A DNA stretch of 64,000 nucleotides from Chryseobacterium balustinum (GTDB lineage: Bacteria > Bacteroidota > Bacteroidia > Flavobacteriales > Weeksellaceae): assembly GCF_900168205.1 (NCBI RefSeq), contig NZ_FUZE01000001.1, forward strand, positions 310,001 through 374,000, given 5' to 3'. Every line of letters starts with the position of its first letter. Within the stretch, counting starts at the first letter, position 1. Below, piece by piece: positions 23,522-26,201 of this stretch. The position numbers and the translations under genes were made by a program. The notes under the pieces are model-generated. The model saw only the letters and a program-made list of their open reading frames with translations, had not been told where the DNA came from and made no database searches.

Positions 23522-24745
23522 ATGTATTCAATCATAGATATAGAAAGCAATGGTGCAGGTTTTAGAAAAGAATGCATTATAGATATCGCCATTTTCAAGT
23601 ATGATGGTCATAAAATTGTTGATCAATTTATTTCACTTGTCAACCCAGAAAGTGATATTACTCCATTTGTTCAGAAACTTACCAATATTAGCCCTAAAAT
23701 GGTGAAAACAGCTCCTAAATTCCACGAACTGGCCAAAAGAGTAGTGGAAATTACAGAGGGAACCACTTTGGTTGGACATAACATTGATTTCGATTATAGA
23801 ATGCTTCGCCAATCATTTCAACGGTTGGGGTATGATTTTAAAATCAATACTTTAGACACCATTCCTTTGGCGAAAAAGTTGATTCCGGATGAGGTAAGTT
23901 ATTCTTTGGGGAAATTGGTAAAATCATTAGGAATTCCTTTGGTGAATGCGCATCGTGCAGAAGGTGATGCAAGAGCAACTTTAGAGTTATTTAAATTGTT
24001 GCTTTCAAAAGATACGAATAATGAGATTATTCAGGAGCAGCACGAGGAAACAAATGCTAAAAATTACATCAATAAAATCAAGCTGTTAACTCAGGATTTA
24101 CCAAACGAAAAAGGTTTTGTTTATTTCCAGAATGAAGCAGGAAAAATTATTTTTTCAGATTATGTACAGGATATTAATAAGTTTTCTAAAAAGCTTTTTA
24201 ATTCTAAATCAAAAAAATGGGAAAATATTCAGACTGAGGTTGAGCAAATCAATTTTGAATTGACTGGAACTGATATTATTGCCAAGCTGATTTTAAACTC
24301 AAAAGGAATAAAAAAGAGAGAAACATTGCCTTTCGGACTGTATTTTAGAAATGATAAATATGTAGTTGAAAAAAATACTTTAAATAAAACTGAAAAACCA
24401 ATTCTTAAGTTTAAAGCTTTCACACAAGGCTCAAAAGCGGTGCAGTTTATCAGTAAGATTGAAGAATTTAAAGATATCAATGCCTTCAAAAAGAAGATAG
24501 ATTTCAGAAAAAGAAACGAACTTTGGTTGGGAAGCGGAAGAAAATTAGGTGAAAAACTTTTCCTGATTATTGATAACGGAAAAGTTACTTCTTATGGTTT
24601 TTATGAATTGTTTACACAGATTCAGACGATGAGTAAAATTGCAAAACTAAAAATAGATTTGCCGTTACCAACAAATGATCTTATTAATGATTTGCAATTG
24701 GCAATACTTCGTGGTGATTTTGAAACCTTGCCATTGCCGAAATAA
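23522..24745 (+). CDS. DnaQ-like exonuclease with a degenerate GIY-YIG domain
   Basis: 407 aa. The N-terminal 165 residues are a DEDDh 3'-5' exonuclease: DIESNG (first acids), GHNIDFDYRML and HRAEGDARATLEL. Residues about 190-270 resemble the UvrC/Cho GIY-YIG fold (LPNEKGFVYFQNEAGKIIF ... FELTGTDIIAKLIL), but the catalytic GIY and YIG triads are replaced (GFVYF, IIFSDYV). The rest is unrecognised. The usual arrangement in these two-domain proteins has an active GIY-YIG nuclease, so this one probably lost that activity. Confidence 0.7.
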   Translation: MYSIIDIESNGAGFRKECIIDIAIFKYDGHKIVDQFISLVNPESDITPFVQKLTNISPKMVKTAPKFHELAKRVVEITEGTTLVGHNIDFDYRMLRQSFQRLGYDFKINTLDTIPLAKKLIPDEVSYSLGKLVKSLGIPLVNAHRAEGDARATLELFKLLLSKDTNNEIIQEQHEETNAKNYINKIKLLTQDLPNEKGFVYFQNEAGKIIFSDYVQDINKFSKKLFNSKSKKWENIQTEVEQINFELTGTDIIAKLILNSKGIKKRETLPFGLYFRNDKYVVEKNTLNKTEKPILKFKAFTQGSKAVQFISKIEEFKDINAFKKKIDFRKRNELWLGSGRKLGEKLFLIIDNGKVTSYGFYELFTQIQTMSKIAKLKIDLPLPTNDLINDLQLAILRGDFETLPLPK

Positions 24746-24821
24746 AGGCACTTTTTTAGAATCACAAATGTTTTTCTAAGGAAGAAAATGATTTTCAAAT
24801 TAATTTTCGCAAAATAAATAG

Positions 24822-24829
24822 TATTTTTG
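24822..24829 (+). promoter_or_regulatory. -7 box of the lysA transcript
   Basis: TATTTTTG. A transcript beginning about 7 nt downstream would contain the leader ORF, the pause hairpin and the terminator described below. Confidence 0.6.
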
Positions 24830-24848
24830 CAAAAGAATAAAAAAAGCA

Positions 24849-24920
24849 ATGCAAAATTTTAAACAAAATAAAACTGGTAAAAAGGGAACTATAAAGTTCT
24901 CTAAGGTTTGGAATATTTAA
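24849..24920 (+). CDS. Candidate 23-aa leader peptide of lysA
   Basis: ATG to TAA within the lysA leader; six of the 23 codons are Lys, including a Lys-Lys pair at positions 11-12. A hairpin (GGGAAC 24884-24889 with GTTCTC 24896-24901) lies inside it. Translation would cover this hairpin and end one nt before the antiterminator arm. No known peptide function is implied; it may be a regulatory leader only. Confidence 0.45.
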   Translation: MQNFKQNKTGKKGTIKFSKVWNI

Positions 24921-24921
24921 G

Positions 24922-24985
24922 GAGTTGCCTTGCATAAAAAATAATTATTGCGGCAGACTCTTTTCGGAAGAATCTGCCTTTTTTT
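24922..24985 (+). promoter_or_regulatory. Transcription attenuator in the lysA leader
   Basis: The terminator is GGCAGACTCTT (24952-24962) pairing with AAGAATCTGCC (24968-24978) with one mismatch around TTCGG, followed by seven T (24979-24985). The antiterminator is GAGTTGCC (24922-24929), which pairs with GGCAGACTC (24952-24960) with one bulged G. The two structures exclude each other. lysA begins 16 nt after the T-run. Confidence 0.6.
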
Positions 24986-25001
24986 ATGTAAAATTGAAAT
25001 T

Positions 25002-26201
25002 ATGAATTCAAAAGAATTGTTAAAGATTGCCAATGAATTTGGCACGCCGGTGTACGTTTACGATGCAGAATCGATTAAAATTCAATACGAAAAACTTACA
25101 TCTTCTTTTTTAAAACACACAAAGTTCTTCTATGCTGCAAAGGCATTGACAAACATCAATATTCTGAAATATGTCAAGAACTTGGGTGCTTCTTTGGATT
25201 GTGTTTCAATAAATGAAGTTAAATTAGGCTTAAAAGCAGGTTTTACCAAAGAGAAAATCTTATTTACACCCAACTGTGTTGATTTAGCTGAAATCGAAGA
25301 AGCAATGACACACGGAGTTCACATCAATATCGATAACATCTCTATTCTTGAGCAGTTCGGTAACAAATACGGAAATACATATCCTATTTTGGTAAGAATC
25401 AATCCGCATATTTTTGCTGGAGGTAATTACAAAATTTCTACAGGTCATATCGATTCTAAATTTGGAATTTCTATTCACCAGGTTCGCCATATTGAAAGAG
25501 TGATGAAATCTACCAATTTGAATGTGGAAGGTCTTCACATGCATACCGGAAGCGAAATTAAAGATCCGGATGTTTTCCTTCAGGCTCTTGATATTATGTT
25601 GGAATTGTCTGAGCATTTCCCGAATCTGAAATATCTGGATATGGGAAGTGGTTTCAAAATTCCTTACCAAGAGAGTGAGGAAGAAACCGATGTAAAAACA
25701 TTGGGTAAAAAAGTAGAAAGAGTAATTGCCGAATTCTCAAAATCTACAGGAAAAAAATTTGAACTTTGGTTTGAACCAGGGAAATTCTTAGTTGGGAAAA
25801 GCGGGTACTTATTAGTGAAAGCGAATGTGATTAAGCAAACTACAGCGACGGTTTTTGTGGGAGTAAATTCAGGATTTAATCATTTGATCCGTCCAATGTT
25901 TTACGATTCTTATCATCAGATTGAAAATTTATCTAATCCAAAAGGGGCAGAGAGAATTTATACTGTTGTAGGAAATATCTGTGAAACTGATACTTTCGCT
26001 TGGGACAGAAAGCTGAACGAAGTAAGAGAAGGTGATGTTTTGGCATTCCACAATGCGGGAGCTTATGGTTTTGAAATGAGTTCAAACTTTAATTCAAGAT
26101 TAAAACCTGCAGAAGTTCTTTTCTTAGACGGAAAGGTTCATTTAATCAGAAAAAGAGATGAATTTGAGGATCTTTTGAGAAATCAGATTGAAATACTTTA
26201 A
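25002..26201 (+). CDS. lysA: Diaminopimelate decarboxylase
   Basis: 399 aa from the ATG at 25002; an in-frame TTG upstream would read through the terminator hairpin, so it is rejected. The PLP-binding Lys lies in FFYAAKALTN, with HMHTGSEI, YLDMGSGF (glycine loop), the FEPGKFLV segment and NICETDTFAWDR at the dimer active site. It catalyses the last step of lysine synthesis, decarboxylating meso-diaminopimelate. The leader suggests control by attenuation. Confidence 0.9.
   Translation: MNSKELLKIANEFGTPVYVYDAESIKIQYEKLTSSFLKHTKFFYAAKALTNINILKYVKNLGASLDCVSINEVKLGLKAGFTKEKILFTPNCVDLAEIEEAMTHGVHINIDNISILEQFGNKYGNTYPILVRINPHIFAGGNYKISTGHIDSKFGISIHQVRHIERVMKSTNLNVEGLHMHTGSEIKDPDVFLQALDIMLELSEHFPNLKYLDMGSGFKIPYQESEEETDVKTLGKKVERVIAEFSKSTGKKFELWFEPGKFLVGKSGYLLVKANVIKQTTATVFVGVNSGFNHLIRPMFYDSYHQIENLSNPKGAERIYTVVGNICETDTFAWDRKLNEVREGDVLAFHNAGAYGFEMSSNFNSRLKPAEVLFLDGKVHLIRKRDEFEDLLRNQIEIL

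Follow-up and report, generated by a model that had tools for sequence, protein, structure and literature searches.

The lysA gene of Chryseobacterium balustinum is probably preceded by a ribosome-mediated transcription attenuator, in which the lysine codons of a short leader ORF would sense charged tRNA-Lys. That the region is a transcription attenuator as such, codon specificity aside, can be held with more confidence. The first-pass annotation of the window (the whole stretch of 64,000 nucleotides analysed here) had read it as amino-acid attenuation, perhaps sensing lysyl-tRNA, and the comparative conservation of the predicted pairings and of tandem Lys codons supports that reading. In weighing the case for a Lys-codon attenuator, the interchangeability of antiterminator strands between leaders counts against it, and a scan of lysA loci that was blind to peptide content counts in its favour.

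Layout of the lysA leader and proposed mechanism

All of the elements previously claimed upstream of lysA, namely a -7 box, a 23-codon ORF, an internal hairpin, an antiterminator and a terminator, were recovered where they had been placed, on the forward strand. The leader follows an exonuclease-like gene whose end is at 24745, and its putative promoter is marked by the Bacteroidota-type sequence TATTTTTG (24822–24829), which we take to be a -7 box from the motif TANNTTTG. This box is largely invariant among 79 aligned leaders of the window's type (type A, below), and no clear -33 box was seen in the leader promoter. Region 1 (GCAATGCAA, 24846–24854), identified by folding, surrounds the leader start codon, could pair with 24925–24933, and contains a GCAATGC that is invariant in leader alignment A1. 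The leader ORF itself, supported by sequence and conservation, is MQNFKQNKTGKKGTIKFSKVWNI (24849–24920, TAA included), with 23 codons of which six, codons 5, 8, 11, 12, 16 and 19, specify Lys. Within it lies the internal hairpin (24871–24909), comprising an upper stem of 24883–24890 with 24895–24902 (24883–24902 as a whole) and a lower stem of 24871–24875 with 24905–24909. Region 2 (24922–24929), the 5′ strand of the predicted antiterminator, starts one base past the stop codon and can form eight pairs, with one bulged G, to region 3 (24952–24960), a helix that 24920–24921 and 24961–24962 can extend. Region 3 is common to the 3′ strand of the antiterminator and the 5′ arm of a predicted intrinsic terminator (24952–24985), which consists of a stem-loop at 24952–24978 followed by seven T (24979–24985). 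The putatively regulated gene is the ORF at 25002–26201, identified as lysA (diaminopimelate decarboxylase) by the equivalog model TIGR01048 (386 bits, compared to a cut-off of 297.9); in the lysA tree, the nearest rows to the window are from Chryseobacterium.

According to the proposed mechanism, transcription would begin just 5′ of the leader ORF. With Lys-tRNA plentiful, the ribosome would reach the stop codon and cover region 2, leaving region 3 to form the terminator and turning lysA off; with Lys-tRNA scarce, the ribosome would stall on an early Lys codon, such that regions 2 and 3 could form the antiterminator and the polymerase could enter lysA. In addition, the hairpin within the ORF may pause the polymerase to give the ribosome time to catch up; as long as the early codons are unoccupied, a stem between the start-codon region and region 2 may tip the balance towards termination. 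We infer stalling, the lysine response, polymerase pausing and termination in the cell.

To represent these states, 105 distinct leaders (79 of type A, 26 of type B) were folded with a 27-nt ribosome footprint barred from pairing, before the 3′ arm of the terminator appears, and the antiterminator was scored as formed if at least five pairs were present. Placed on the first Lys codon, the ribosome allowed the predicted antiterminator in 101/105 leaders (79/79 of type A and 22/26 of type B), on the tandem Lys codons in 94/105 (type B only 16/26), and on the last Lys codon in 89/105 (type B only 11/26). With the ribosome on the stop codon the predicted antiterminator formed in 0/105, a result that is largely built in, as region 2 lies beneath the mask. 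When no ribosome was present, the simulated antiterminator formed in 76/79 type-A and 13/26 type-B leaders; given that type A would also form it in this state, translation to the stop codon should be what silences lysA. For full-length RNA, the terminator was on average the stronger predicted fold in every ribosome state, and the choice must therefore fall during transcription.

Intergenic DNA often holds short ORFs and hairpins, and the arrangement might in principle be the terminator of the upstream gene together with an accidental ORF. The leader fold has a z score of -3.0, with none of 200 shuffles equally good. Terminator-like sites, defined as hairpins at or below -9 kcal that precede at least five T, number 51 on both strands of the window; three have a short ORF ending 20–45 nt before the arm, and the lysA leader is the one site where such an ORF is combined with an antiterminator that reaches -9 kcal. 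Retention of the layout across genera, with compensatory changes, likewise argues against chance, which we regard as scarcely credible. A consensus terminator scan reported no terminator at 24952–24985, and probably misses this one because of a mismatch in the stem.

The number of Lys codons carries no such distinction. The six in the window ORF compare to a shuffle mean of 5.45 (P = 0.46), such that composition explains the count, and the earlier caution that Lys codons are common in AT-rich DNA was justified. Lys exceeded composition at P < 0.05 in one of six leaders tested. As judged by comparison of the sequences, support for the Lys codons comes from their conservation, not from their number.

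Leader peptides and distribution among relatives

Two sets of lysA loci were used for comparison: (i) a named set, the best 80 of 579 confirmed lysA loci, which for that reason leans toward close relatives, and (ii) a second set of 80 chosen lysA loci from Weeksellaceae genomes. The leader is present in 65/80 loci of the named set. Within the second set it occurs in 5/8 loci of the window's own genus, 20/29 of g26, 5/6 of g9 (in the sixth the contig breaks off beyond the terminator part), 2/7 of g11, 2/2 of g7, 2/2 of g24 and 1/1 of g27, and it has thus been seen in seven genera (g1, g7, g9, g11, g24, g26 and g27). The mutually exclusive antiterminator and terminator claimed by the first-pass annotation are kept, as an alternative pairing, in nearly all of these leaders, but the presence of the leader itself is less general: leaderless relatives are common, amounting to 15 of the 80 named loci and all 25 loci in a further 13 Weeksellaceae genera. 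The best lysA tree requires seven gains or losses of the leader, and well-supported branches alone force two. The 15 leaderless loci of the Chryseobacterium group (L015, L032, L035, L040, L046, L047, L051, L061, L062, L064, L069, L080, L081, L083 and L084) are preceded by different sequence, in which a promoter-like motif resembling TACCTTTG lies near lysA.

A wider, strictly filtered search applied model R1, a covariance model of the leader, to 296 genomes of the order. It returned 40 places at E ≤ 0.01, of which 28 lie directly before lysA, all in Weeksellaceae (27 with E no higher than 1.2e-11 and one with 0.0077). Nine of the 12 other places were examined and none was attenuator-like, eight reading as gene ends followed by a terminator and one as neither; the places outside these nine are second matches of genomes G044, G081 and G242. 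Within the window's own genome, R1 gave one strong match and two weak ones, which show a terminator-like hairpin without a leader of this kind. No leader was seen before dapA or an aspartokinase gene in this genome, and ilvD had no match in it. In family f3, taken as Flavobacteriaceae, 57/60 genomes contain a lysA match, and none of the best 30 of these loci bears a comparable leader; three passed a loose filter with a Lys-containing ORF, none of which resembled the lysA leader, one reading as the tail of an upstream gene.

The leaders fall into two types by peptide. Type A comprises 79 distinct leaders (g1, g9 and one of g7) with the peptide MQNFKQ.KTGKKGAVKFSKVWNI, and type B comprises 26 (g26, g11, g24, g27 and one of g7) with the peptide ..SIKKVASKGKKFFSK..VD; Lys makes up about 25% and 27% of residues, respectively. 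Val-Asp stands directly before the stop codon in 15/26 type-B peptides (L118, L145, L146, L156, L161, L164–L169, L172–L174 and L189), and no RNA pairing that would account for this end was seen. Genus g7 bears both types, A in L133 (genome G103) and B in L189 (genome G132), which hints at leader replacement or transfer.

These 105 distinct leaders, reduced from 113, were picked by peptide patterns holding KVWN or GKK, so that KK and GKK frequencies within them are built in. A peptide-blind scan was therefore run as a check on this choice. Among 160 lysA loci, 102 combine a hairpin and T run with a short ORF whose end lies 20–45 nt before the arm, and in 99 of these 102 an antiterminator reaching -7.5 kcal is present as well; two g11 loci fail at the antiterminator step because region 2 sits inside their ORF. 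The distribution across the 160 loci is the same as that from the peptide patterns, and KK occurs in 99/99 and GKK in 98/99 of the leaders found. The Lys codons anticipated in related lysA leaders are thus conserved, with tandem Lys in every leader found irrespective of peptide content.

The same data bear on an attenuator lacking lysine specificity, which would sense general translation speed or starvation, its Lys codons reflecting AT-rich DNA. The Lys count lies within composition in five of the six leaders tested, as this reading would have it, but tandem Lys throughout the 99 peptide-blind leaders, in two diverged types of similar Lys content, argues for specificity. Codon 8 lacks Lys in 10/79 type-A leaders, and codon 7 is Lys in 10/10 of these; counting against the Lys-codon reading, K16 is replaced by Arg in 13/64 type-A leaders of the named set. 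The downstream gene makes lysine, and the genome has his and trp leaders whose codons fit their own amino acids (below). We consider an attenuator blind to lysine decidedly improbable.

Among the distinct type-A variants, 20/46 are synonymous, compared to 19–24% expected (binomial P 0.0001 to 0.003), and this excess indicates that the leader ORF is under selection as coding sequence. It is hard to reconcile with an RNA switch bound by a protein or metabolite (e.g. a riboswitch) in which the ORF would be incidental. Such a switch would fit the conserved internal hairpin, and the sequence leaves room for a ligand; however, no Rfam family reaches its gathering score in the window. Specifically, the seven Rfam matches at E ≤ 10 within 24700–25100 all fall far under their gathering scores and include neither the lysine riboswitch nor the T-box. 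We judge this alternative very unlikely.

Selection on the peptide could also reflect an arrest peptide, for which TnaC and SpeFL are the models: the conserved peptide itself, and not tRNA charge, would sense lysine, which in the exit tunnel would halt the ribosome at the stop codon, so that the ribosome covers region 2 and forces termination. In type A, conservation of the core TGKKGAVKFSKVWN extends past its Lys residues, W21 being present in 64/64 rows (rows that were picked by KVWN), and in the simulations a ribosome held at the stop codon would hide region 2. Against this, the C-termini are wholly unlike between the types (VWNI in A, SVD and others in B), and the internal hairpin already constrains the nucleotides of the ORF. 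No arrest-peptide lysine sensor is known to us in this phylum; if true, it would place nascent-chain lysine sensing alongside riboswitches, but we find it unlikely.

Conservation of the alternative pairings

Compensatory change was evaluated in alignment A3, which holds 42 leaders of both types (18 of the 79 type-A leaders were used, and two g11 leaders were left out). Taking the internal hairpin together with the terminator stem, standard pairs fill 96.3% of cells, and 77 cells are changed on both sides; none of 500 shuffles matched either figure. Other statistics were less discriminating: the number of pairs with two-sided change was reached by 33/500 shuffles, and that of pair types by 178/500. 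Sliding the pairing reduced the paired cells to 40–65%. The outer six pairs of the terminator are formed in all A3 cells, with compensatory changes, the upper stem of the internal hairpin shows compensatory changes between types A and B, and the lower stem is maintained in type A. RNAalifold, unaided, returned nearly the same two helices. Compensatory stem changes, which had been proposed as a check on related leaders, were thus seen between the two types for the terminator and the internal hairpin.

The antiterminator appears conserved in another manner. Cognate strands pair with a mean of -10.7 kcal (counting two g11 leaders at 0 kcal), compared to -4.2 ± 2.2 kcal when region 2 is shuffled; 21/26 type-B antiterminators, among them those of the two g11 leaders once region 2 is placed inside the ORF, fall below p 0.05 by comparison with shuffles, and 5/26 do not. 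Non-cognate strands from within a type are nearly as good, at -10.6 versus -11.3 kcal for cognate strands in type A and -8.4 versus -8.9 kcal in type B, which indicates that the antiterminator pairing is conserved more than covarying. In a fixed register, two-sided changes amount to none in type A and two cells in type B. Region 3, as predicted, must fit two partners.

One covariation was seen in the predicted antiterminator, in the form of a moving bulge. C at 24924 accompanies G at 24957 in 18/18 rows, and otherwise in 11/45, an association with a Fisher value of 1.3e-8 that ignores kinship. On the tree, where 63/81 rows carried both traits, about five of six independent pairs agree and none oppose (median p 0.06). 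In the g11 leaders region 2 lies within the last ORF codons, with antiterminators of -12.7 and -12.5 kcal; judging by this placement, region 2 would still be covered by a ribosome at the stop codon.

The start-codon stem of regions 1 and 2 is predicted at -9.6 kcal in type A, compared to -5.1 kcal when shuffled, with 43/79 leaders at p < 0.05. The same threshold is reached by 10/26 leaders of type B and by neither of the two g24 leaders. On these folding energies, the start-codon stem appears less well supported than the antiterminator.

Relation to known attenuators

Two further leaders in the same genome provide a comparison. The first, before hisG (L237, contig G000:C20, 2247–2197, minus strand), encodes the peptide MKPNFLTVHHYYHHLC with the run HHYYHH and is followed by a terminator; it has no Rfam match at gathering score. 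The second (L242, contig G000:C33) encodes MIISNNKNWWWHSNSSSGLMLLSCC, with three tandem Trp codons (WWW), likewise followed by a terminator, and the next gene is anthranilate synthase-like, the genome's best trpE match, albeit under the curated cut-off. By their anatomy, these his and trp leader peptides indicate that the attenuator class is in use in this genome. The lysA leader resembles them in its short ORF, whose codons match the pathway, and in the terminator that precedes the first gene, but it lacks their unmistakable HHYYHH and WWW runs, and the his and trp leaders were read in this one genome.

Ribosome-mediated attenuators are established for the trp, his, leu, ilv, thr and phe operons, and leader-peptide attenuation is textbook for several amino acids, with lysine usually a case for riboswitches or T-boxes. 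The lysA leader would share with the classic systems a leader ORF that contains codons for the product amino acid, the mutually exclusive antiterminator and terminator, and the predicted masking of region 2 once a ribosome reaches the stop codon. It differs in its lysine codons and its Weeksellaceae host, in the scattering of Lys through the ORF, where a single tandem pair takes the place of a long codon run, and in a region 1 that holds the start codon and not the control codons. Elsewhere among bacteria, lysine genes come under RNA control through the lysine riboswitch (L-box) and the T-box; the lysA leader matches neither model.

In 2010, leader-peptide systems had, to the knowledge of the authors of one report, been shown only in Proteobacteria and Actinobacteria, ermC apart (PMC2965389), and another report lists lysine, in the portion available, as L-box controlled and his, thr and phe as attenuated (PMC1262725). 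For Flavobacterium psychrophilum, strong clues have been described for leader-peptide attenuation before amino acid biosynthesis operons (PMC9723704), the same proposed class in a flavobacterium; the main text available contains neither 'lysine' nor 'lysA'. The first-pass annotation had called lysine attenuation by a leader peptide unfamiliar in this phylum, which stands for the lysine case, none having been found in print, but not for the class, given its suggestion in flavobacteria (PMC9723704). Also in this phylum, Bacteroides thetaiotaomicron 5′ UTRs contain sORFs reminiscent of leader peptides (PMC7366714); the example cited precedes a hypothetical protein gene, and the text available does not contain 'lysine'. 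The Sinorhizobium sORF SEP5 has been suggested to be a Thr/Lys leader peptide (PMC10117765), and, from the portion available, it has three Lys codons but also six Thr codons, and precedes an aspartate dehydrogenase gene, not lysA. The accessible portions of PMC8632094, PMC6386406 and PMC1273637 contain no lysine-codon leader before lysA. No description of such a leader was found in the open-access literature, parts of which were available, and novelty is thereby unproven. By comparison of sequences, the lysA leader would thus belong to a known attenuator class with a conserved layout, its lysine specificity not having been found described.

If the reading as a lysine-codon attenuator is correct, lysine would be added to the amino acids controlled by leader-peptide attenuation. 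Taken with the his and trp leaders, it would suggest a use of ribosome-coupled attenuation across several amino acids in these Bacteroidota. Because Lys codons are so frequent, such leaders readily escape notice, and a test for conservation could reveal others. Finally, the patchy presence of the leader inside one genus would make the gain and loss of such control testable.
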